Program-made: the position numbers and the translations under genes | The notes under the pieces: generated by a model | Seen by the model: the letters and a program-made list of their open reading frames with translations, nothing else | The model's database searches: none | Told to the model about the DNA's origin: nothing | Part shown: one piece after another, positions 51,254 to 64,000 of the stretch | Position numbering within the stretch: the first letter of the stretch is position 1 | Layout of the letters: the number at the start of each line of letters is the position of its first letter | Source of the DNA: Basidiobolus meristosporus CBS 931.73 | Lineage: Eukaryota; Basidiobolomycota; Basidiobolomycetes; Basidiobolales; Basidiobolaceae | NCBI GenBank assembly: GCA_002104905.1 | Contig: MCFE01000229.1 | Coordinates: forward strand, 57,435-121,434 | Length of the DNA: 64,000 nucleotides | Direction of reading: 5' to 3'

Positions 51254-51322
51254 TTAGGGGGGGGGGAAGACAGTCACCCACAGGTGAGATATTTATCTCA
51301 GTTAAAACAAAGAGACCAGTGC
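51254..51322 (-). mobile_element. LINE 3'-end copy 1
   Basis: Plus strand starts TTAGGGGGG and continues GAAGACAGTCACC...GGTGAGAT, a diverged form of the LINE 3' box; the LINE sense strand is minus. Only about 69 bp remain before the next copy begins in the same orientation. Confidence 0.7.
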
Positions 51323-51575
51323 TTAGGGGGAGGAAAGTTGCCAAGTGGTAAAATCTTTATTCCCTTATGACAAGTATCTAAAGAAGCCAAGTTAATCTGA
51401 AGTTATTCCCAGAAAGTTAGGTCTGAGAGTTGAGAAGCTGAGTGGTAATGTATTTCCTAATTAGCTAGGTCTGAGAGAGGTTTCCTGTAAAGCTAGGCCT
51501 GAGAAGTGAGAATCTGAGTATATCTGAGGTAGGTTGTACTGGTTTGTGGTAGCTGAATTGTGGCCAGAATAACCA
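51323..51575 (-). mobile_element. LINE 3'-end copy 2, long version
   Basis: Starts TTAGGGGGAGGAAAGTTGCC and then matches the telomere-embedded copy at 63523-63765 over its whole length, up to GAATTGTGGCCAGAAT. Sense strand is minus. It holds the same three CCTAG-type imperfect hairpins, more decayed than in the telomeric copy. Confidence 0.8.
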
Positions 51576-51782
51576 GTATACAGGGGGAGCTAAGGAGAAT
51601 TTCTGGGCAATTACTGGCCAAATCTACTAGGCAAATCTGACCAATTAGCATTTCAAGGATTTCAGTCAATCAGAGCCATTACTTGGCCCAATGGATGATC
51701 AAGCCATCTCGCAATCAGCACACATTAATATATTGATTGAATTTTGCTGGATCCAGGACTGGAACCCATAACCATAGGCATG

Positions 51783-51870
51783 GAGAGGGGAAGACAGTCA
51801 CTAAGAGGTGAAATCTTCATTTCAGTTGAAACAAAGAAGCCAGCACTACTGTTGTAGCTTTGATATCAGA
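51783..51870 (-). mobile_element. LINE 3'-end copy 3
   Basis: GGAGAGGGGAAGACAGTCAC and following bases match copy 1 (shared GAAGACAGTCAC and AAACAAAGAAGCCAG-like blocks). The right limit is approximate. Same orientation as all other copies. Confidence 0.65.
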
Positions 51871-52093
51871 GTGTGTAGCGGAGCAAACTTGTAGGTAAGT
51901 CAATAAGGAGAGATGATAGTAATTCAGTGCTCATGAAACTGTTGAATGGGAAGGGGGGTAGTAAGAGGAGTAAAAATGCTTTGTCAGCAACATTGATTAG
52001 GGATAAATGATAAGGATTGATATTCATCATAAGGGGAGTGTACTGCTTCAGATGTTGCTGCCAAAAAATCTGTCAAGTAATTCAGGTAGGAGG

Positions 52094-52224
52094 GTTAGGA
52101 GAGGGAAAGTTACCAAGCTGGTGAAATCTTTATTTGAGTCAAGAACTAATCTAAGTACAAATAAAGAAGCCAATTAAGAAGTCTAGAACTTCTCTAATAA
52201 GTAATCTAATTTATATTTTGTTTC
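52094..52224 (-). mobile_element. LINE 3'-end copy 4, same subfamily as the coding LINE
   Basis: Matches 55323-55445 closely, from TTAGGAGAGGGAAAGTTACC to TCTAATTTATATTTTGTTTC, so it is the 3' end of the same LINE subfamily, truncated after about 130 bp. The junction on its left is AGGGTTAGGAGAGGG. It carries the hairpin at 52177-52193. Confidence 0.82.
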
Positions 52225-52276
52225 TTAGGGGGAGGAAAGTCACCAAGTGGTGAAATCTTTATTTACTTATGACAAG
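52225..52276 (-). mobile_element. LINE 3'-end copy 5, split by a chromovirus
   Basis: TTAGGGGGAGGAAAGTCACC through CTTATGACAAG is nearly identical to the telomeric copy at 63520. It is interrupted at 52277 by the chromovirus LTR, which inserted into it. Confidence 0.82.
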
Positions 52277-52953
52277 TGTTGTGCATCAACATTTAAAACT
52301 TGGCCAATTTCACTCTGTTAGAAAATCTAGTACCCTAACTGATTTTCCCTACCCCAAACATAACTAATCCCTTTTATGGTATATTTTATCACTTCTCAGA
52401 ATTTATTTTTAGCTTTCACACCTGATCAATTTTCATCTGGTCATTACATCCTCAACTGATCTGCTAAGCCTTTCCAAGTGATTAATCATCTGAGATTTAT
52501 CTAACCACTTAGCAATTGCTAAGACATCAGCTGATTAATGATGCAATTTTTCATTTACCTTATGCACCTATCAACACCCCAACAGATTTCAATTAGTCCA
52601 GTCTCTTGGCACTTACTAATGCAACTCAATCAGAAAAGTATAAATAAAGTTTACTGAACCTTTTGGTTTAGTGTGTGTCTCAACAAAATTAAGAATTCAA
52701 CAAATCCATTCTAGCTTCTACCCAAGCTTAGCATATCTAGCACTCTCAAGAACACCAAGCCTAGCCTGCATAGCAAACCTACTCTGTTGCCTTTATAGCC
52801 CAACTCAGCTATATATAAGACCAACATTAGACCAGAACCTCTCTGCTAATAATTTTGTCACTCTTGACAATTCTGAGATTTTGCACTTAGTTGTCACTTA
52901 GGTTCAGTTAACTCATTCAAGAGTTTTATTACACTTTTCTCTTGGATACAACA
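52277..52953 (+). repeat. 5' LTR of chromovirus copy 1
   Basis: 677 bp, starting TGTTGTGCATCAACA and ending GGATACAACA. It matches the LTR at 58641-59337 (reverse) and the solo LTR at 3441-4138. It contains AGTATAAATAAAG near 52637, a TATA-like or polyadenylation motif. The tail TTTTTTTGTC after the LTR is the position of a primer-binding site; I could not match it to a tRNA. Confidence 0.88.
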
Positions 52954-52993
52954 TTTTTTTGTCAAATTCCATTACATTCAACCGCATTACAAT

Positions 52994-54955
52994 ATGTCCT
53001 CAGTAGCAAGCAATCCAAATCTTTCCATGTTGGAAGAAGCCTGCAGAAATCAGGAAGAACTAACTGAACAGCTTGAAGACATCATGCATGAAAGAAACAC
53101 TTTGATGCTTGAACACTCAAAGCTTGCCAAGACAAGATCTGACAATCATTGTAGAGATGAACTTCTTGAAGTTATTTCTGGTTACCAAGATGAAATTGGA
53201 ATTACCAAAGAAGCCCTGGAGAATATTGCCATTGTATTTGACAGCATTGAAAATCCACCAAGCCTTGCTCTGCATCAGCCACCAAGAAGTCATGTCTTTG
53301 GATCCTCCAGATCTACATCGCCCTCTAGACCTACCCCGGTGGTTGTCCCAAGATCCTTGCCTCTTTATGCTGAAGGGGCCAATGCCATAGAGAATGCTAC
53401 TTAGTATCTTTACAAGTTTAGTCATATCTTGGCTGCACATCAGCTAGACCCTGGCACCAATTGGGCTAGACTTCTGCCTCTCTGTCTCACCATGCAAGAT
53501 GCTGACTGGGCTGAGGTGAACGTTCCTTCCAATAGTACATGGAAAGTTGCCCAGAACCTCTTTTGTGGACATTTTGAAGATCCCATCAAGAAAGCACATC
53601 TAAACTGCAACTTATGGAAAACTAAAATGTAAAAAGGTGAAGCTGTACAACATTTCTGTGATAGATTCCAGAGGCAAATGAGACAAGCTGGAGTTAGTGA
53701 TGACAATTGATTGCTTACTTCTCATTTTCTTTCAAAATTCTCAGTCCAGCTACAGAGCAACATTGCTATTGTCAAAGCAAGCAACCCTGCATGTACCTAT
53801 GACAGAATCTCAGAGATATATATACTTGCAATGACCATGACTGCAGCTGTTAGCCAGGCTTCAGGCAACTCCATTCCAGATGCAGCAACAATCAAAAAAG
53901 AGAGCAGTTATATGACTAAGAAGAAGTCAACTGCTAGCAAGCATTGTGAGTTTCATAGAAGATGTTATCATTCTACCAGTGAGGGCAAAGGCATCACCAA
54001 GCAGTCAAACAAGTCCGGATACATGTCAGAGAAGCAGCAAAACACCAAAACTGATAATCCATATGCTGATGACAAATGCTTTAAATGTGGAAAGATGGGA
54101 CATAGATCACCTGCCTGTCCTGAGTAGAACTCTACACCATTGGCAAAAATTACTCTGATTCTGGATGATCATTCAACCAATGATATGACAGGGAATGAGG
54201 AAGCATATGAAGAACTTATAGCTCAAGATTATTACAACCTCTTTGAAATTCCGGCTAAAATTGCAACTGTTCAAGAAAAGAAGAAAGCAATTGTGCAGCT
54301 AAAAGCTATAGAGGTGCCACTCAAACTCAATGGCCAATCATATGCAGCACTATTGGATACTGGATCATCCAACTCTATTGTATCACCTAATGTGGTCAAA
54401 GAACTCAAATTGGCAACAGAAAAGCAACCAGGAACAATCATACTTGTGGCTAAGGACCTCTCAGCCCCAAGAATTGGTATCACCAGCCCAATCAGCATAC
54501 ATTGTGGTTCAATAACTATAATCCATCAGATGGAAGTAATTGACATTCCAGATGGACCTCAAGTACTCATTGGTCTAGACACCTTCACCAAACTTGGCTT
54601 TCATATAGGTGGACTACCAGTCTCATATCCTGCAATCACCAAGTCTCAGCCACCCAAAATGGATCAGATTCCAGAGATTATCTCTCCCCATTTGGAAGCA
54701 GAGGAGTCAACTCCAACTTTTCAAGCATAATCAATCAATCAAATTGGAAATGCAGCTGGTCATAGAAAGAAGCCAAGCCATTCCCAGGAACAGTTTCTGC
54801 ACTATTTTAGAATCCATTGTTACACTAGAAACCCCACCTGGTGAGTCAACATGGAGGAGGCAATACCCAATTCTGCATTCTTGTCAAGACTTGGTTGATG
54901 AAATAGTCCAAAAGTGGGCTGACAATGGAATCATCACTCAAGCCCCTGTCAGTAC
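52994..54955 (+). pseudogene. Chromovirus copy 1 gag-pol, dead and truncated
   Basis: Begins with a Gag ATG at 52994 (coiled-coil-like N-terminus), then Gag matrix/capsid sequence, a CCHC knuckle near 54079 (CFKCGKMGHRSPAC), the protease (LLDTGSSNS near 54345) and the start of RT-proximal sequence. In-frame stops at 53402, 53631, 53707 and 54127 and a frameshift after 54727 inactivate it. It is the only copy in the window that shows the Gag N-terminus missing from copy 2. It ends at 54955 where a copia LTR begins. Confidence 0.88.
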
Positions 54956-55322
54956 TGTTGTAAGAGTCTTGGAGATATTGGAAGTGACTGGGAGGACAAG
55001 TAGATTATGTGGTTTTCACTTAATGATTTATTGAATGTAAAAGTAGTATTTATACTTTTACATGGTCTTGGCATAAAAAAAAAGAGTAGATTAAGGAAGG
55101 TCCCAAGAGTATGTGTGCAAAGTTTGGGGCTGTTTGGTCAACTTTGAGAATTTTCATGTTCTGGGTACCTGGTATTTTGGTGAAAATATTCTAAGTAAAT
55201 CCCAACAAGGAATTTGGTCAGTATTCTCTAGGATATGAAGGTAATGATCTAAGTGACTAAGTTAGGTCAATATTTATGTGGAAATGCAAACTTTTACAAC
55301 ACTCCCACTCAGCTAAATGCTC
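54956..55322 (-). mobile_element. Broken copia element: 3' LTR plus about 20 bp of internal sequence
   Basis: A full copia LTR in reverse (54956-55301) is followed by CTCCCACTCAGCTAAATGCTC, the reversed polypurine tract and the end of pol. Homology to copia then stops and TTAGGGGAGGG of the LINE 3' end begins. So a complete copia element once sat in chromovirus copy 1, and all of it beyond this point was lost. Confidence 0.85.
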
Positions 55323-55410
55323 TTAGGGGAGGGAAAGTCACCAAGTTGGTGAAATCTTTATTTGAGTTAAGAACTAATCTAAGTACAAATAAAGAAGCCA
55401 ATTAAGAGGT

Positions 55411-58260
55411 CTAGAACCTCTCTAATAAGTAATCTAATCTATGTTTTGTTTCATCTCTAATGTGTGTTTCAATAAAGTAAAGCTCATCAGGGGTAAATAT
55501 AAAATTCAGGGGTTTTGGGGGAAGTACAAATTGTAGATGTTTCTGATCAATATAATCCAAGACTGGAACCCAGCCTGGGATTAGGTGTAGTAGGAAAGGT
55601 GTGTGGACTTGTAAGTAGCTCTGCCACATAGATCTTAGAAGGTCCTGAGCCAGTAGTCTTGGTTTCTCAGCTTTTTGAAGTTTTGAAGCAAGCTCTGTTA
55701 CTACAGCAGAGCCAACCAGGGTGTGCCAGCAAGAAGATTTCAGGGAGGAGTTAGATTGAAACCATTGTTTGATGGAGGGGTTATGTGATTTCTGAAGTTT
55801 GACTAGGAAGGAAGCCCGGAGATAGATCATTCGGATTTGGTATGGGTAGAACCCAAAGGCTCCATTAGTTGCATGGATATAGGGAGATACTGGAAGATAA
55901 GGTACCAAGGATCTGATACACTGATGGAGAAATTTATCCAGGCGGTGAAGTTCTCTGGAGGTAAGGGGTATAATGTGGAGACCAAATTCAAGTACCAGCA
56001 GTACATACTGCTTCAGAAGTATAGGGATCTTTTGAATTGGAGTGTCTGGAGTGACTACTACCAGAAGCTTTTTGAGAGCCTGTTGGGCAAGACAGATCCT
56101 ATTATTCAGGTGGAGCTTTGTGTCAATCCCATGTTGACAAAACGGCAGACCTAGATATATTGCAGTTTGTTGTGGCAGAATGCTAGTGTTCTGTATAGTT
56201 GTAGTGCATCCAATTGGGACTGTCTTGGAAATTGAGAGTGAGAGGTTGTTGGCAGCCAAGTACTTCTCAATGATGGCAGTGTCTGCTATGGGATTTGGAG
56301 TAGCAATCTTGATATCATCTGCATAGAGAGTTAGTAGTGGATAGGGAGAGTCTGGTGAGGGGCCTTTCGGAAATAAAGGAAAGTCATGTAGGAATATCAC
56401 AAATAATAAGGGACCTAGTACAGATCCTTGGACTACTCCATTTGGAACCTCATAAGTCTCTGATGTACAACTTGGATGCAAAATTTTGGCTGAGTTCTCA
56501 CAAAATAGAGAACGTACAAGAAGGGTCATTGGTAGTGTGGTAACAGCTAATAGCTTTCTCCAAAGCAGAGCTCTGTCCACAGAGTCAAAGGCTTTAGTAA
56601 TGTCAAACAGAATGGTTGGCAATGAGAATTGAAGTGAATGATCATGGCTTAGCACTACAGCCATATCCAAGGAGAGTTTGGGCAAGAAGCCAAACTGAGA
56701 AGGATGGAATGGATATAGTTGAGATTGCAAGGATCTTGCTATTATAAGCTCAAAGATTTTCCGGCAGGTTGGTAGGAGTGAAACTGGCCGGTAAGAACCT
56801 GGGAGTGAGTGTTTCCCCTTCCCTTTGTATAAGGGTATTACATTTGCCTGTGACCAGGCCTTTGGGGTAGTCAATTGTTGGGCACAGATAGAGTAGAATA
56901 GGAGAAGTAAGTGACTCATTTTGGAGTAGCACACCCGGAGTAGATTGTAGGTAATCAAGTCATGTCCAGGTGCAGTATTTGCAGGAAGCTTCTTTAAAAT
57001 TTTCTCCAGAAGCTTTGCTGAAACCACAATTGGAGATGTTGTACTGCTAGATATGTCACCAGTATGGTAGAAAGGAGGAGTGGGATGCACGGTTGAATCA
57101 AAGAATATAGGGGCCAGTTTGTCTGGTGATGGTATACTTCTTGCTTGGGGTCTCATGGCTTTGTATACTCTTGATATGGACCTTGTGGTGGCATTCATAT
57201 TTACTAAGGGCAAGGTATCCATGATATGAGCCCATAATCTAGTATGCTCAGTGATCTGTAGTGACTTGGAGTAGGAGATTGCGCTTTCCAGGAGGTTCTG
57301 TGTTTTTGGGTTAGGGAAACATAGGTAGCTGGAATTTAAGGCAGAAATGATGGATTTCCATTTAAGTTGGTTTGCAGATGGCTTTTGGTAGGACTTGGTG
57401 GGCAGGGCCAGACAGCCAGTGATTATGATGAAATGCTGGTAAAATAGCCATAATGCATTTACATCATCACAAATCCATGCAGGTAAGCTGGGAAATGCAT
57501 ATTCTGTAAGCAAGGATAGGTAGTTGGCAAAGTCCTGTGTCTGTGATACTGAAGCTTTGGCTGGCACGATTGTAAATGGCTGAAGAAGGGTGCCAATTGG
57601 TAGGGTTTTTCTGGCAGAAATGATAATATGTATTGGCTTGTGATCAGATTTCTCTAGTGAACCACAGCTGATATCCTCTGGAATGCTTGTAACCTGGTGG
57701 ATGTACTGTAAGGCAGCTGGAGTGGCTGTTACCCAGTCAACACAACGTTGAGCTTGCTGAGTGTTTACAGTGACCAGATGGTTTTGTTGTAGGAACTTTG
57801 TAAAGTGCTCCTCTTGGGTTCTAAGTCTGGATGAAATAGTGGTGATATTTTCAGGGTGGGGAATATTTATATCTCCCACTACCATACAAGGGATTGATGA
57901 GCTGTTAATGAATTCTGATGTGGCCAAGAAAATTGCCAGTGTTATGGAGTTAGACAGAGATGGAGGGAGATAGATAATAATGGCTACTATAGTTGTAAGT
58001 GTTAGAGCATAGCAGTAATATTCATATATGATGGATACATTTGCTGAGGGTGCAAGCTTAGAAGATGAAAGAGCAACAAGTGCCATTGAGTGAGCTGGAA
58101 ATTTTGGGTGAGCAGATGAATATGCATTCAGTCTAGAGGGAAGTTTTGGCAACTTAACATCAATTAGTAGTAGCAAGGAATATTCCTTTTTCAGTAAGTT
58201 TTCTAATTCAGCTACAGTTGGAGTGATGGAGTTGCAATTGAGTAAGAGTATGTTCTGTAG
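55411..58260 (-). CDS. LINE ORF2: APE-type endonuclease and reverse transcriptase
   Basis: An uninterrupted frame of 949 codons from the codon after a TGA (58261-58263) to TAG at 55411. Endonuclease signatures: ILLLNCNSI right after the TGA, GDINIPHPE near 57880 and SDHKPIH near 57650. Reverse transcriptase: GSYRPVSLL, FDITKAFDSVD, VVQGSVLGPLLF and YADD near 56320, then a thumb-like C-terminus ending LLERF. No RNase H and no C-terminal zinc knuckle are seen. There is no ATG before the endonuclease; the first in-frame Met lies about 59 codons in, so translation probably enters from ORF1. In the position of the catalytic QET-type Glu the protein reads LIDVK, so an Asp may replace it; that alignment is uncertain. 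The frame has no inactivating stop, suggesting recent activity. Confidence 0.9.
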   Translation of the reverse strand, partial: LQNILLLNCNSITPTVAELENLLKKEYSLLLLIDVKLPKLPSRLNAYSSAHPKFPAHSMALVALSSSKLAPSANVSIIYEYYCYALTLTTIVAIIIYLPPSLSNSITLAIFLATSEFINSSSIPCMVVGDINIPHPENITTISSRLRTQEEHFTKFLQQNHLVTVNTQQAQRCVDWVTATPAALQYIHQVTSIPEDISCGSLEKSDHKPIHIIISARKTLPIGTLLQPFTIVPAKASVSQTQDFANYLSLLTEYAFPSLPAWICDDVNALWLFYQHFIIITGCLALPTKSYQKPSANQLKWKSIISALNSSYLCFPNPKTQNLLESAISYSKSLQITEHTRLWAHIMDTLPLVNMNATTRSISRVYKAMRPQARSIPSPDKLAPIFFDSTVHPTPPFYHTGDISSSTTSPIVVSAKLLEKILKKLPANTAPGHDLITYNLLRVCYSKMSHLLLLFYSICAQQLTTPKAWSQANVIPLYKGKGKHSLPGSYRPVSLLPTCRKIFELIIARSLQSQLYPFHPSQFGFLPKLSLDMAVVLSHDHSLQFSLPTILFDITKAFDSVDRALLWRKLLAVTTLPMTLLVRSLFCENSAKILHPSCTSETYEVPNGVVQGSVLGPLLFVIFLHDFPLFPKGPSPDSPYPLLTLYADDIKIATPNPIADTAIIEKYLAANNLSLSISKTVPIGCTTTIQNTSILPQQTAIYLGLPFCQHGIDTKLHLNNRICLAQQALKKLLVVVTPDTPIQKIPILLKQYVLLVLEFGLHIIPLTSRELHRLDKFLHQCIRSLVPYLPVSPYIHATNGAFGFYPYQIRMIYLRASFLVKLQKSHNPSIKQWFQSNSSLKSSCWHTLVGSAVVTELASKLQKAEKPRLLAQDLLRSMWQSYLQVHTPFLLHLIPGWVPVLDYIDQKHLQFVLPPKPLNFIFTPDELYFIETHIRDETKHRLDYLLERF

Positions 58261-58640
58261 TCAGGCAAACTCTGAGGTTGCCTGTTCCTGCTGAAACTCT
58301 TGCACTGCCCTTTGTAAATTTCCAGAATTATTCCACAACTCTTCAAATGGAGCTTGCGTAATGTCTTTCAGGATTCTAATTGCTTTCTCTTTCAAGAAGT
58401 AGGCCACATCATAGGTTGGAGCTTGTTTCTTAATGGCAGCAAAGAAAGCCATAACTGCCATGTGAGCTGGGGGCTTGTTGAATATTCCTGGCTCAGTGTC
58501 CATTGACTCTGGTGGAATGATTGTGAATTTGGTAGGCACCCAGTTTAGATTTTTTGCCAGATACTTAGTCAATGCAGTGGAGAAGTCTCTGTCTACAATC
58601 ATTTCTAGGATCTTTCCTCTTCTCCAAGCTAGGTTAACAA
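58261..58640 (-). CDS. LINE ORF1, C-terminal part
   Basis: The frame is open from the LTR junction (58640) to TGA at 58261, about 126 codons; the first Met is at 58602. It lies in the same frame as ORF2, separated from it by that one TGA, which is followed by CTA. The protein fragment (NIVNLAWRRGKILEM ... QEQATSEFA) has no zinc knuckle or RNA-recognition motif that I can see. The N-terminus was lost when the chromovirus inserted or the flank was deleted. Partial. Confidence 0.65.
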
Positions 58641-59337
58641 TGTTGTATCCAAGAGAAAGTGTAATAAAACTCTTGAATGGTTTAACTGAACCAAAGGGAC
58701 AATTAAGTGCAGAATCTTAGAATTGTCAGAGAGTGGCGGAAATATTAGCAGAAAGATTCTGATCTAATATTGGTCTTGGATATAGCTGGGTTGGCTATAA
58801 AGGCAATGATATTTATTTGCTAGGCAGGCTAGGCTTGGTGTTCTTTGGAGTGCTAGATATACTAGGCTTGGATAGAAACTAGAACGGAATTGTTGGATTC
58901 TTATTTTTGCTGAGACAGAATCTTAATTTCGTTGAGACACACACTAAACCAAAAGGTTCAGTAAACTTTATTTATACTTTTCTGATCAAGTTGAATTAGT
59001 CAGCGCCAAGGGACTGGATTGATTGAAATCAATTTGGGTGTTCATAGGTGCATAAGATAAATGAAAATTACATCATCAATCAACTGATGTCTTGGCAACT
59101 GCACAGTGGTTGGATAGATCTCAGATGACTAATCACCTGGGAAGGCTTGGCAGATAGGTTGATAACGTAATGACCATTTGAAAATAGATCAGGTGTGATA
59201 GCTAAAAATAGATTCTGAGGTGGGATAAAATAAACTGTAACTGGGATTTGTTATGTTTGGGTTAGGGAAAATCAGTTAGGGTACTAGATTTTCAAACGGA
59301 GTAAAATTGGCTAAGTTTTAAATGTTGATGCACAACA
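58641..59337 (-). repeat. 3' LTR of chromovirus copy 2
   Basis: 697 bp, matching the other chromovirus LTRs. On the minus strand it starts TGTTGTGCATCAACA immediately after the pol stop codon and ends GGATACAACA. Purine-rich GGAAGGAAGTGA at its upstream edge would be the polypurine tract, overlapping the last codons of pol. Confidence 0.9.
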
Positions 59338-62300
59338 TCACTTCCTTCCGGAAGAGGAGTTTTTTGATACCTTCTGGGTTCCTCTGCGGCTCCAATACTG
59401 ATTAATAATGGCAACATCATCAAAGTTGGTGTAAGGTTCCCAGGTGTTGTGTTTGGCATCATAGCCTTTCCACTTGACTAAATAAAGGCAATTTGGTTCT
59501 TCTCCATCATGGTCCACAATAGCTTCAACTTCATAGGATTCCAAAGTTACTGGGTCTTGAGAAATAAGTTTGAGTGAAGAAGGTGGAAAGTTTTTGGGTA
59601 GCAGTGCTCCAGTGTTATCCTGAAGTACATAAGATCCTCCAGTAGTGCGTCTGACAACCTTGAATGGTCCTTCATACTTGGGGTCAAGCTTAGATTGCCG
59701 GATTGGATCTAGTGTCATGACATATGACCCATCTGGGAAGCTGCTGTTCCTGTGTCTTGAGGCATACGTTGAAGTCATCTTTTGCTGAGAGGCCTTACTT
59801 CTGGCACTGATAGCAGGGTAGACAATGTTGGTAAGGTACTCAAGCCGGTTCTTTAGCTTATCTGTATTCAAACTTGCTAACTCTGTATTCTGGTAGTCTC
59901 CAAAGTGGTTGTATCTTCTTCCAAACATCAAGGAAAATGGTGTTGATCCATGTAGAGTGGCAATTTTGGTGTTGATAGCATACTGTACAGTTGGAACGTA
60001 CTTGTCCCAATTCTTCTTGATACCTTTGATAGATTTCCTGATGATGTTCACTGAGGTCTGAACATGTCTTTCAGCCAGTCCATTAGCTTTGGGATGATAT
60101 GGAGTGATCAGACGGTGATCAATGGCGCTATTCTGGCAAAGGGCTTTGATCACGTGATTCACAAATTCTGTTCCATTATCCGATTGAATGACCTTAGGGA
60201 ATCCAAAAAGGCAGAAGAGCTTGAATAGTTCTTGTGCAATAGTGGCAGCATACTTGTCTGGGATAGCTTTGAGGAAGACAAAACGTGTGCAGACATCCAC
60301 AATTACAAAGAGGTAGTGATTACCATCATTACTAGTGGTGAAAGGTCCAGCTAGATCAATTGCAATATGATCCATAGGAAGGCTTGCATGGATGGGGCTC
60401 AAAGGGTGAAATCCATGGCGGCTGATATTGTAAAGTTGACATTCTCTGCACAACTTGACAAATTCTAAGCAGTCAACTTTGATATTTGGCCAGTGATATC
60501 CATCAGAGTGTAGCTTCTTCATAAGTGTGTCAGCTCCAAAGTGGCCAAGTAAATGACTCCTCTGTATCAATGTTTTCCTTTGTTCTTCAGGTGGGATTTT
60601 CCAAGTTGCTGAATCCAGCTGAGGAATTATTTTGGAAGTTGTAGAGAGTTTACTGATTACATCAGTAATCACATGTCCCTCCCAAGGTGAAGTTGGAAAA
60701 AGTCTTGACAGGTGGTCAGGAAGGATGTTGAGAATTCCTGGGCAATGAATAACTGTATATTCATAATCAAGTAGAGTATCAAGCCAGTTGGTAAGCATTG
60801 GAGTCAGAGTCTTCTGAGTGTGGATATAGACAAGGGCTCGGTGGTCAGTGTACAAGGTAAAAGGATTACCCCATAGATACTGATGAAACTTCTTCAACGC
60901 AAAGACTATGGCAAGTAGCTCCTTCTTGGTAGCAGAGTAGTTTCTCTCAGCAGGTTGTAGGGACCTGGCTTGGAAAGAGATCCAGTGAGGCGGATTTTGG
61001 TCTTCATCTTGATAGAGGACTGCCCCTAACCCAACATTAGATGCATCCGTAGCAACAATAAAGGGCTTAGTAAAGTCTGGGTAGGATAAGGTGGGTGCTT
61101 GTGGAAGCAGTTGGCAGAGTGACTCAAAGGCTTGGTCATGAGTCTTGTTCCAGGCTGAGGTGAGATCCGGGCTATGGCGTAATGCATCTAAAGGGGCACT
61201 CAATGAGGACATGAGTGGTATGTGTTCCCTGAAATAGTTGAATACTCCAAGATAATGTTGAAGTTGCTTGGCGCTAGTGGGTTTTGGCCATTCTGGGATA
61301 TTGACCAGTTTGAAAGGATCTAATTGGTGGCCAGCTGGTGTGACTATAAATCCAAGTAGATTGATTTTGAGGCGGGCAAAACTGCACTTTTCAGCATTGA
61401 GAATCAGTCCAGCAGTTGTCAGTCTGTTGATTACATCAGTGACATGGGTTGCATGATCATCACGGTTAGTGGAGAATATGATGACATCATCAACAAATAC
61501 CAATGCGTATGGTGCATTCTTGAGTATTATAGTCATGACTCTCTGAAACTTGCTGGTAAGTGTCTTTAGGCCAAAGGGAGCTCCCTGAAACATCCATTGC
61601 ATATTATTCCAAGTAAAGGCAGTCTTATGCTGATGATTAGGGTGGATCTGGAATCGGTGATATGCATCCTTCAAGTCCAACTTGGAGAATACTTTTGCTC
61701 CTGATAGTGCGGAAAAGATATCTTGGATTCTTGGAATTGGAAACTTGTCATCTTGGAGAAGCTTGTTCAGAGGTCTGGGGTCCAAACAGGGTCTCTTCAG
61801 GGTTAGATTTCCATCAGCATCTTTCTTTGGTGCAAGCGTCAAAGGGCTGTTGAATGTTGTGTTGACAGGGGCTTGAGTGATAATCCCATTGTCAGCCCAT
61901 TTTTGGACTATCTCATCAACTAAGTGTTGACATGAATGCGGAATTGGGTATTGCCTCCTCCATGTTGACTCACCAGGTGGGGTCTCTAGTGTAACAATGG
62001 ACTCTGGGATGGTGCAGAAGCTGTTCCTTGGAATGGCCTGATTTCTCTCTATGGCCGGCTGAATATCTAATTTGACTGATTGAGAATATTCTTGAAAAGT
62101 TGGGGTTAACTCTTCTTCTTCCGGTTGGGATGAGATAATCTCTGGGATTTGATCCATTATGAGCGGCTGAGATTTAGTGATTCCTGGATAGGAAACCGGT
62201 AGTCCGCCTATGTGAAAGCCAAGTTTGGTGAAGGTGTCCAGACCAATGACTACCTGAGGTCCATCTGGTATGTCAATCACTTCCATCTGATGGATTATGG

Positions 62301-63138
62301 TTACTGAGCCACAATGTATGTTGATTGGGTTGGTAATGCCAATTCTTGGGGCTGAGAGATCCTTAGCTGCAAGAATGATTTTTCCTGGTCGTTTTTCTAT
62401 CTCCAAATTGAGTTCTCTGACTACATTGGGTGATACAATAGAGTTGGATGATCCAGTATCCAGTAGTGCTACGTATGATTGGCCATTGAGGGTGAGTGGC
62501 ACTTCTATGGCTTTGAGCTGTGTGATTGGTTGCTTCTTTTCTTGGACAGTTGCAATTTTAGCCGGAAACTCAAAGAGGTTGTGATAATCTTGAACTGTAA
62601 GTTCTTCATATGCTTCTTCATACCCCATTGTATCATTAGCTGAATGATCAACAAGGATCTGGGTAATTTTGGCTGACGGTGTGGAGTTCTTCTCAGGACA
62701 GGCAGGTGATCTATGTCCCCTATTTCCACATTTAAAGCACTTGTCATCAGCATATGGATTATCAGTTTTGGTGTTTTGCTGCTTTTCTGCGGTGTTTCCT
62801 GACTTGTTTGACTGCTTGGTGATGCCTTTGCATTCACTGGTAGAATGATAGCATTTTCCATGAAGCTCACAGTGCTTAGTAGCGGTTGACTGCTTCTTGG
62901 TCACATGACTGGTCTCTTTTCCGGCTGTTGTGGGGTATTGGGTTGAGCTGCCTGAAGTCTGGCTAACAGCTGCAGTCAAGGTGATTGCCAGTGTACATAT
63001 CTCTGAGATCTGGTCATAGGTACGTGCAGGGTTGCATGCTTTGACAATAGCAATATTGCTCTGTAGCTGGTGTGAAAAGTTTGAAAGAAAATGAGCAGTA
63101 AGCGATGGATTATCATCACTAACTCCAGCTAATCTCAT
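59338..63138 (-). CDS. Chromovirus (Ty3/gypsy) polyprotein with C-terminal chromodomain, 5'-truncated
   Basis: An intact frame of 1266 codons. Order: end of Gag with a degenerate CHHC motif (near residue 90) and a CCHC knuckle (134-147, CFKCGNRGHRSPAC), aspartic protease (ALLDTGSSNSIVS, about 220-240), RT (FVDDVIIFS, about 550), RNase H (VATDASNVGLGAVLY), integrase zinc region (GHFGADTL ... CRECQLY), DDE core (AIDLAGPF, QSDNGTEFV, LAERHVQ) and a chromodomain at about 1205-1255 (EVEAIVDHDG, YLVKWKGYDAKHNTWEP). Chromodomains of Tf1/sushi-type elements steer integration to modified histones. The start shown (63138) is internal: compared with copy 1, about 230 codons of Gag and the 5' LTR are missing, so it cannot transpose alone. 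The stop codon abuts the 3' LTR. Confidence 0.93.
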   Translation of the reverse strand: MRLAGVSDDNPSLTAHFLSNFSHQLQSNIAIVKACNPARTYDQISEICTLAITLTAAVSQTSGSSTQYPTTAGKETSHVTKKQSTATKHCELHGKCYHSTSECKGITKQSNKSGNTAEKQQNTKTDNPYADDKCFKCGNRGHRSPACPEKNSTPSAKITQILVDHSANDTMGYEEAYEELTVQDYHNLFEFPAKIATVQEKKQPITQLKAIEVPLTLNGQSYVALLDTGSSNSIVSPNVVRELNLEIEKRPGKIILAAKDLSAPRIGITNPINIHCGSVTIIHQMEVIDIPDGPQVVIGLDTFTKLGFHIGGLPVSYPGITKSQPLIMDQIPEIISSQPEEEELTPTFQEYSQSVKLDIQPAIERNQAIPRNSFCTIPESIVTLETPPGESTWRRQYPIPHSCQHLVDEIVQKWADNGIITQAPVNTTFNSPLTLAPKKDADGNLTLKRPCLDPRPLNKLLQDDKFPIPRIQDIFSALSGAKVFSKLDLKDAYHRFQIHPNHQHKTAFTWNNMQWMFQGAPFGLKTLTSKFQRVMTIILKNAPYALVFVDDVIIFSTNRDDHATHVTDVINRLTTAGLILNAEKCSFARLKINLLGFIVTPAGHQLDPFKLVNIPEWPKPTSAKQLQHYLGVFNYFREHIPLMSSLSAPLDALRHSPDLTSAWNKTHDQAFESLCQLLPQAPTLSYPDFTKPFIVATDASNVGLGAVLYQDEDQNPPHWISFQARSLQPAERNYSATKKELLAIVFALKKFHQYLWGNPFTLYTDHRALVYIHTQKTLTPMLTNWLDTLLDYEYTVIHCPGILNILPDHLSRLFPTSPWEGHVITDVISKLSTTSKIIPQLDSATWKIPPEEQRKTLIQRSHLLGHFGADTLMKKLHSDGYHWPNIKVDCLEFVKLCRECQLYNISRHGFHPLSPIHASLPMDHIAIDLAGPFTTSNDGNHYLFVIVDVCTRFVFLKAIPDKYAATIAQELFKLFCLFGFPKVIQSDNGTEFVNHVIKALCQNSAIDHRLITPYHPKANGLAERHVQTSVNIIRKSIKGIKKNWDKYVPTVQYAINTKIATLHGSTPFSLMFGRRYNHFGDYQNTELASLNTDKLKNRLEYLTNIVYPAISARSKASQQKMTSTYASRHRNSSFPDGSYVMTLDPIRQSKLDPKYEGPFKVVRRTTGGSYVLQDNTGALLPKNFPPSSLKLISQDPVTLESYEVEAIVDHDGEEPNCLYLVKWKGYDAKHNTWEPYTNFDDVAIINQYWSRRGTQKVSKNSSSGRK

Positions 63139-63190
63139 TTGTCTTTGGGTTTGGGTTAGGGTGTAGGTGTTATAGTAAGGGCTAGGAAAA
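63139..63190 (+). repeat. Telomere-like tract at the broken end of chromovirus copy 2
   Basis: Homology to copy 1 ends around 63148. It is followed by TTTGGGTTTGGGTTAGGG, then degenerate GTGTAGG and GGGCTAGG. Such impure TTAGGG-type sequence at the broken edge of an element suggests an old healed chromosome break. Confidence 0.65.
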
Positions 63191-63199
63191 GGTTAGAAG

Positions 63200-63270
63200 A
63201 GCAGGGGGTCTGGGGGACGCAGTCCCCTAGAGAATAAAAAAGCAGGGGGTTTGGGGGATGCAATCCCCCA
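63200..63270 (+). repeat. Two direct copies of a hairpin-forming unit
   Basis: AGCAGGGGGT-C/T-TGGGGGA unit at 63200-63227 and 63241-63268. Each contains a perfect hairpin with loop GCA: GGGGAC/GTCCCC (63213-63227) and GGGGAT/ATCCCC (63254-63268). The two stems differ by a paired change (C-G to T-A), so base pairing is preserved. Confidence 0.75.
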
Positions 63271-63504
63271 TACTGCTCTTATACTCTTTAAATTCCTGTT
63301 GGATTACTTTTCTCTCATTCTTGGTTCTGGTCCCTTAGGGTTAGAATTCCTCCTCCTAACCCTTATCACCCTAACCATAAATATTTTTACCCTACAATTG
63401 GCACATTGTCTGCTCATATGGTGGGCATGTCTGGGCCAATATTTGTCTCCCTATACTGTCCATACGCTCTGTATAAGTCTTGATGACTATTTAATTAATA
63501 AATT
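63271..63504. other. Subtelomeric spacer with scattered telomere-like motifs
   Basis: No gene. Contains isolated CTTAGGGTTAG, CCTAACCC and CACCCTAACC motifs on both strands, i.e. degenerate telomere sequence mixed into T-rich DNA. A 104-codon frame across 63251-63565 is not credible: it crosses several repeats. Confidence 0.5.
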
Positions 63505-63522
63505 GTTAGGGTTAGGGCTAGG
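63505..63522 (+). repeat. Short interstitial telomere repeat
   Basis: TTAGGG TTAGGG CTAGGG directly precedes the LINE 3' end. It shows that the LINE piece that follows was added to a telomere end. Confidence 0.85.
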
Positions 63523-63765
63523 GGGAGGAAAGTCACCAAGTGGTGAAATCTTTATTTACTTATGACAAGTATCTAAAGAAGCCAAGTTAATCTGAAGTTA
63601 TTCCTAGAAAGCTAGGTCTGAGAGTTGAGAAGCTGAGTGGTACTATATTTCCTAGTTAGCTAGGTCTGAGAGAGGTTTCCTGGAAAGCCAGGCCTGAGAA
63701 GTGAGAATCTGAATATATCTGAGCTAAGTTATACTGGTTTGCGGTAGCTGAATTGTGGCCGGAAT
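63523..63765 (-). mobile_element. Truncated LINE-family copy 7, embedded in the telomere
   Basis: About 243 bp between telomere repeats on both sides. The plus strand begins GGAGGAAAGTCACC and matches copy 2 (51323-51575) to its end GAATTGTGGCC. Its left 45 bp are shared with the coding LINE; the rest is a related but distinct sequence, so it is either a different LINE subfamily or a short non-autonomous (SINE-like) unit using the LINE's 3' end. It holds three tandem hairpins at 63603-63616, 63651-63664 and 63679-63692. Confidence 0.82.
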
Positions 63766-64000
63766 GGGTTAGGGTTAGGGTTAGGGTTAGGGTTAGGGTT
63801 AGGGTTAGGGTTAGGGTTAGGGTTAGGGTTAGGGTTAGGGTTAGGGTTAGGGTTAGGGTTAGGGTTAGGGTTAGGGTTAGGGTTAGGGTTAGGGTTAGGT
63901 TAGGGTTAGGGTTAGGGTTAGGGTTAGGGTTAGGGTTAGGGTTAGGGTTAGGGTTAGGGTTAGGGTTAGGGTTAGGGTTAGGGTTAGGGTTAGGGTTAGG
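63766..64000 (+). repeat. Terminal telomere array (TTAGGG)n
   Basis: About 39 tandem TTAGGG units run to the end of the window, with one short TTAGG unit near 63895. The G-rich strand points outward, as at a right chromosome end. This is the vertebrate and filamentous-fungus type of telomere repeat. Confidence 0.98.

Follow-up and report, generated by a model that had tools for sequence, protein, structure and literature searches.

INTRODUCTION

The closest described counterparts of the elements reported here come from fungi, insects, and the Penelope-like group. MoTeR1 and MoTeR2 of Magnaporthe and FoTeR of Fusarium are fungal telomeric retroelements without long terminal repeats (non-LTR elements) (PMC7367193; PMC12857005). 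MoTeRs have their 5′ ends nearest the chromosome end and form head-to-tail arrays with short TTAGGG tracts between copies; MoTeR2 has 3′ sequence in common with MoTeR1, and truncated MoTeRs are telomere capped (PMC7367193). Here we describe long interspersed nuclear elements (LINEs) and a partner resembling a short interspersed nuclear element (SINE) at chromosome ends of Basidiobolus meristosporus CBS 931.73 (assembly GCA_002104905.1). They were found in 64,000 nucleotides of contig MCFE01000229.1 (positions 57,435 to 121,434), called the window below, and were then searched for in the whole assembly. One protein encoded in the window shares 86% identity with a protein of Basidiobolus ranarum and 73% with a protein recorded for B. 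meristosporus CBS 931.73, which places the sequence in the genus Basidiobolus.

The layout resembles that of MoTeR and FoTeR, with 5′ ends toward the chromosome end and head-to-tail arrays, but the endonuclease class differs. MoTeR and FoTeR belong to the CRE group and carry a restriction-like endonuclease, whereas here two LINE families with an apurinic/apyrimidinic endonuclease (APE)-type domain are accompanied by a SINE-like partner. A restriction-like endonuclease was not seen in LINE-1, whose N-terminal domain is predicted to have an APE fold, although no restriction-like model was searched by name. TRAS and SART of Bombyx are likewise telomeric LINEs with an APE-type endonuclease, and their host has kept a telomerase gene (PMC5537684). 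They are described as inserting within the repeats under endonuclease guidance and as being present at telomeres only as full-length copies (PMC4700185), whereas the elements here mostly have one telomere unit inward and are frequently 5′ truncated.

HeT-A, TART, and TAHRE of Drosophila share with the present elements a centromere-facing 3′ end, stacking, and a nonautonomous partner, and TART and TAHRE retain an APE domain, as the LINEs here do (PMC5537684; PMC4700185). The Drosophila system has poly(A) tails and no telomerase, in contrast to the telomerase domain, TTAGGG arrays, and CCCC(C)TAA 3′ end found here. Priming at exposed chromosome ends has also been proposed for Penelope-like elements that lack an endonuclease (such as Athena, and with members in fungi), and these elements have telomeric repeats at the 3′ end and telomere addition on truncated 5′ ends (PMC3846280; PMC5537684). 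The same junctions occur in Basidiobolus. Those elements, however, have a Penelope-type reverse transcriptase (RT) and no endonuclease, whereas both LINEs here have a LINE-type open reading frame 2 (ORF2) with an APE-type domain.

RESULTS

A 3′ tail is common to two LINE families and a SINE-like partner

The original prediction had read the telomeric end of the window as a stack of one LINE family marked by seven copies of a 3′ box. All seven sites were found, each in the predicted orientation. The single-family reading was not supported, since the sites split into three types (A, B, and D) with different bodies, representing a SINE-like element (reference copy, 518 bp) and no fewer than two LINE families. 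What types A, B, and D have in common is the 3′ tail, which on the sense strand consists of a TCACC-loop-GGTGA hairpin, a short C-rich stretch, and CCCC(C)TAA. Types C and E, with a 3′ tail of the same kind, occur elsewhere in the genome, outside the window. RNA folding of five type-like tails of 40 to 42 nt predicted a stem of at least 5 pairs in each (z-scores of −1.7 to −4.1), which is suggestive of a 3′ tail stem but does not prove it.

Both LINE-1 and LINE-2 contain ORF1 and ORF2, and RVT_1 was detected in both. In LINE-1 ORF2, Pfam returned RVT_1 alone and detected no N-terminal domain; modeling of this domain predicted an APE fold (predicted local distance difference test score of 85; 4-sequence alignment) with a template-modeling (TM) score of ∼0.65 to APE1 and to the TRAS1 endonuclease 1wdu, which ranked 30th. 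LINE-2 matched Exo_endo_phos_2 with an E value of 3e-4, under the curated cutoff. APE-type enzymes usually have an ET(K/H) motif; at this position LINE-1, LINE-2, P0002, and P0003 have IDVK or IDVQ. Both families retain the domain, as do relatives. Five relatives (P0001 to P0005) match LINE-1 at 43 to 64% and LINE-2 at 48 to 80%, compared with ∼21 to 38% for other matches. Among RTs of solved structure, human L1 ORF2p is the nearest in sequence (E value, 7e-12). The D-type 3′ end was assigned to LINE-2 through locus L031.

In the fetched loci, 5/5 copies of LINE-1 and 2/2 copies of LINE-2 have ORF1 and ORF2 in the same frame, with only one TGA between them and CTA directly after it. These sites are at 58258-58263 in the window and in loci L026, L031, L033, L057, L059, and L082, and we take TGA-CTA to be a possible stop-codon read-through signal. 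LINE-2 ORF1 (L026:5762-7333) has an N-terminal CPNC...CKC cysteine motif, which, judging from its sequence, might bind nucleic acid; Pfam gave nothing over the cutoff for this ORF.

The SINE-like element has its 3′ tail in common with its partner LINE, as is characteristic of LINE-dependent SINEs. The sense 5′ part contains GGTTCAAATCC, which we take to fit the B box of a tRNA-like RNA polymerase III promoter. ARAGORN found no tRNA in the SINE-like copies of six loci (the two tRNAs of L022 lie elsewhere), and an Rfam search of L077 and L078 for a tRNA head found nothing.

The elements lie at contig ends in one orientation

The original prediction had proposed a whole-assembly search for the 3′ box with distance and orientation recorded, and that search bore out both the end association and the single orientation. 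The exact box occurs 852 times, 778 forward and 74 reverse. The D-type box is likewise one-sided (614 forward, 41 reverse), as is the SINE-like 5′ end (204 versus 10 by strand). For the LINE-1 RT region, the best 40 of 106 candidates were 99 to 100% identical and all on one strand; for LINE-2, the best 40 of 491 candidates were divided 34 to 6. Three of these six minority-strand matches lie 0.5 to 6.7 kb from left contig ends (C490, C595, and C419), two are on short contigs (C193 and C217) where other listed boxes are likewise reversed, and one is interior (C558). The identity of 99 to 100% is a property of the best copies, because only the best 40 of 106 or 491 were scored. Older copies are present, such as the SINE-like copy at window position 51332, which is only 84% identical.

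Placement was tabulated for 109 of 380 listed rows, namely, those on contigs with a known length of 56 kb or above. The other 271 rows (short or unknown-length contigs) and unlisted places fall outside this table, for which lengths were taken for match-bearing contigs and in which not every contig end is a telomere. Within these bounds, 108 of the 109 placed matches lie no more than 25 kb from a contig end (uniform expectation, 37.5), and in 109/109 the 3′ end points to the interior relative to the nearer end. A terminal telomere array was seen at 17 loci. The two ends of C424 (312,558 bp, telomere to telomere) mirror each other in their elements, and the left ends of C424 and C419 combine a CCCTAA array with elements in mirrored arrangement. 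The original prediction had named as evidence against it copies that lie in chromosome interiors, in either orientation and with unrelated junctions; such copies were absent from the placeable matches except for one interior cluster.

As a control, the Ty3/gypsy LTR word was counted on both strands genome-wide (115 versus 100). A gypsy position control of 12 places gave 9/12 near ends and 10/12 in one orientation relative to the end, but it is not clean, because it comprises only 12 places on contigs picked for telomeric matches; the genome-wide count is the fairer control. The (TTAGGG)4 word occurs 7,428 times forward and 81 times reverse in the assembly, and most telomeric contigs are therefore written with the telomere at the right. 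Telomere arrays appear to be almost confined to right contig ends, an odd one-sidedness. Chance as the source of the pattern was ruled out by the genome-wide box counts, the shuffles, and the placement table, and a dispersed LINE was ruled out by the proximity of nearly all placed matches to ends.

Inner junctions mostly carry one telomere unit

The TTAGGG-like sequence that the original prediction had noted at the inner (3′) junctions was borne out genome-wide, with most junctions carrying one unit and not a tract. TTAGGG lies no more than 8 bases upstream of the exact box at no more than 707 of 852 places (83%; a few places are counted twice), compared with two units at no more than 182 (21%); the first unit therefore looks element borne. 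Junctions were parsed for 138 of 143 candidates, the others being 2 false matches, 2 locus edges, and 1 real box without a recognizable G run. TTA plus a G run was present in 112 of the 138, with exactly one unit in 80 of those 112. No poly(A) was seen at the junctions, in agreement with the prediction, and the 3′ end is CCCC(C)TAA. At many junctions, one unit links the element to arbitrary sequence. Sixteen loci have both a box and a terminal array. In these, ∼1 to 5 units lie on the inner side of the outermost element, versus terminal arrays of at least 140 to 243 bp in 14 loci and of 49 bp and 74 bp in the remaining two (the 74-bp array is cut short by the limit of the fetched stretch).

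Most truncated copies border another element or telomere repeats

Past the break of a truncated copy lies, in most cases, either the next element or telomere repeat sequence. In L059, L083, L086, and L087, the LINE-1 bodies end at four separate points, and the 3′ end of another element comes next in each. Among 23 full-length SINE-like copies, the next element follows 17, a telomere array follows 5, and a telomeric motif plus other sequence follows 1. The loci searched contained no match to the SINE-like element on the wrong strand, and within the fetched stretches no SINE-like copy resumed past a telomeric element, whereas one copy split by an LTR-like insert does resume beyond the insert. 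Two SINE-like copies had been flagged as resuming, of which one is a LINE-1 tail; the truncated SINE-like class also contains LINE tails, which match over the first 31 to 46 nt only.

Truncation breakpoints ran into the telomeric motif in 58 cases, at 56 distinct reference positions (some 1 to 4 nt apart). An overlap of 1 to 5 nt with the telomeric motif was found at 38 of the 56 breakpoints kept, overlaps of 10 and 12 nt having been excluded as artifacts. The mean overlap was 1.89 nt (45 scored) versus 0.75 simulated, with 0 of 20,000 simulations as high, although related breakpoints are not independent of each other. When 11 joins with extra bases were scored as zero, the mean was 1.52, above all 5,000 simulations.

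The genome encodes a telomerase domain

Telomerase_RBD was detected over the cutoff on C880 as a pair of adjoining pieces, of which one contains an in-frame TAG that is perhaps due to an intron. Loss of telomerase is ruled out by this encoded RNA-binding domain. The arrays at the very ends consist of ordinary TTAGGG. Telomere extension by the elements, which the original prediction had put forward, is thus far a candidate role.

Structure of the telomeric end of the window

The 14-mer box is exact at three of the seven sites, has 1, 2, and 3 mismatches at one each, and has more than 3 at 51254. At up to 3 mismatches the window holds 16 matches versus 6.6 expected, and 0 of 100 shuffles reach 16; single matches at this threshold are therefore partly noise, unlike the 247-bp (93%) and 130-bp (94%) repeats of the window. 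Toward the telomere, and on the minus strand unless noted, the stack starts with a short degenerate 3′ end of D type (LINE-2-like) at 51254..51322, preceded by TTAGGGGG. It continues with a near-full-length type A SINE-like element (51323..51782; 84% to the reference copy), a second degenerate D-type 3′ end (51783..52093; far boundary approximate), and a type B (LINE-1) 3′ end 5′ truncated to ∼130 bp (52094..52224). After TTAGGGGGA, the next element follows directly, a type A fragment cut by an LTR (52225..52277). A second gypsy copy, broken and in plus orientation, occupies 52277-55302; the sequence cutting it has TGTTGTAA...TTACAACA ends and resembles a solo LTR.

The ORF-bearing LINE-1 copy (type B, 55323..58644) is 5′ truncated, with the 3′ junction TTAGGGGAGGGAAAGTCACC. 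Its ORF2 (55411..58260) encodes a predicted APE-type endonuclease (from model and alignment, not Pfam) and an RT (Pfam RVT_1), and the C-terminal part of ORF1 (58261..58644) is in the ORF2 frame with one TGA (TGA-CTA) between them. A Ty3/gypsy element adjoins LINE-1 (58645..63157; outer boundary approximate), its 5′ side broken and joined to TTTGGGTTAGGG. The outermost type A element, 5′ truncated (63518..63767), lies between TTAGGG units on both sides, as predicted: three telomere-like units (63506..63526, plus strand) form its 3′ junction, and the contig ends in 232 bp of TTAGGG (63769..64000, plus strand). From this structure, we infer the order element stack, gypsy abutting LINE-1, gypsy break joined to TTTGGGTTAGGG, further sequence, outermost SINE-like copy, and TTAGGG array. 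In the window (63157-63517) and in L036, L027, and L030, other sequences recur directly past telomeric motifs, e.g., TGTAGGTGTTATAGTAAGGG and TTCTAGTGCTTTATTGGG; these are perhaps further end-associated families.

DISCUSSION

The directly observed location, orientation, shared tail, junction structure, truncation, and microhomology, together with the genomic telomerase domain, suggest that these elements copy themselves onto worn or broken ends alongside telomerase. They probably constitute a telomere-specific retroelement consortium in which the 3′ ends of eroded or broken chromosomes prime reverse transcription, followed by capping by the next element or telomerase. The consortium would comprise two LINE families and the SINE-like partner, possibly with further types, all with the common hairpin followed by CCCC(C)UAA, the likely true 3′ end of the RNA. 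By way of the LINE RT, which would act in trans on the SINE-like RNA, a few bases of this tail would pair with the G-strand 3′ end of the chromosome. Reverse transcription would be primed at that free 3′ end without nicking and the element copied outward, so that its 3′ end would always face the centromere. The outer end, often 5′ truncated, would next be capped by another element or, presumably, by telomerase. Priming at ends accounts for the presence of just one unit, for the shortness of the inner tracts, and for the joins to arbitrary sequence. The original prediction had also taken the one orientation as what end priming predicts; the orientation was found, but it does not prove priming, since G-strand nicking predicts the same and MoTeRs show the same (PMC7367193).

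Several findings weigh against this reading. The APE-type domain retained in the LINEs and in relatives suggests that nicking is in use; TART, which is thought to transpose onto ends, is described as retaining its endonuclease too (PMC5537684). Contraction or recombination at a later stage could account for the short inner tracts. Healing by telomerase with the element added afterward would be expected to leave microhomology just as much; at new Magnaporthe telomeres on ribosomal DNA truncations, seeds of 1 to 4 nt are reported at 19/24 (PMC7367193), and microhomology therefore fits a telomerase-first order as well. Fourteen alignment ends outside the 58 lack the telomeric motif (∼6 LTR-like, 3 breaks inside the SINE-like element, and the rest unexplained). 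Neither TTA nor TA precedes the G run at 10/138 junctions, and the box at L035:4718 has no recognizable telomeric junction. Finally, the cluster at C558:94000-97600 (L097) lies in the interior of a 218-kb contig with the same elements in one orientation, possibly as a former chromosome end or a misjoin.

The strongest alternative is endonuclease-dependent target-primed reverse transcription within TTAGGG arrays, as in TRAS and SART, in which the APE would nick the G strand and the element insert, with truncation and short inner tracts arising later. It shares the predicted orientation, fits TTAGGG at most junctions, and would give a role to the APE-fold domain retained in both LINEs, with its resemblance to the TRAS1 endonuclease. 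Two or more units inward at no more than ∼21% of boxes, inner tracts short versus outer arrays, and arbitrary sequence joined through one unit at many junctions all speak against it, as does the common 5′ truncation, given the restriction of TRAS and SART at telomeres to full-length copies in the review cited above (PMC4700185). Since sequence alone does not separate end priming from nicking, we regard the former as probable and the latter as unlikely but deserving serious weight.

Passive accumulation, in which a few retrotranspositions were followed by stacking of copies through break-induced replication and unequal exchange among ends, is improbable. Near-identical copies among the best 40 of 106 LINE-1 matches and repeated blocks, such as the LINE-2 fragments of L019 truncated at almost one point, would fit it, and MoTeR arrays are described as undergoing exchange of this kind (PMC7367193). 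However, 56 of 58 truncation points are distinct, joins show microhomology, and the families have differing bodies with only the 3′ tail and junction in common. That misoriented or misjoined telomeric contigs cause the bias is very improbable: telomere words do run nearly all in one direction, but the orientation holds with respect to whichever end is nearer, at left ends too (C419, C424, C291, and C80) and at both ends of C424, and the gypsy word is on both strands.

In the open-licence literature, at the level of titles and abstracts, we found no telomere-specific SINEs and no such elements in Basidiobolus, which is no proof of absence. More tentatively than for the consortium itself, we raise the possibility of a second, working telomere repair system beside telomerase, in which the LINE RT would recap broken or eroded ends with LINE and SINE-like RNAs that bring their own CCCCUAA template, the short RNA being akin to a telomerase RNA acting in trans. 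LINEs with an APE endonuclease and a SINE-like partner would join the known fungal telomeric elements, at high copy number and with many near-identical copies, beside a telomerase domain. Retroelement healing of chromosome ends would become testable in a telomerase-bearing cell, as would the role of a short RNA as the carrier of a telomere template.

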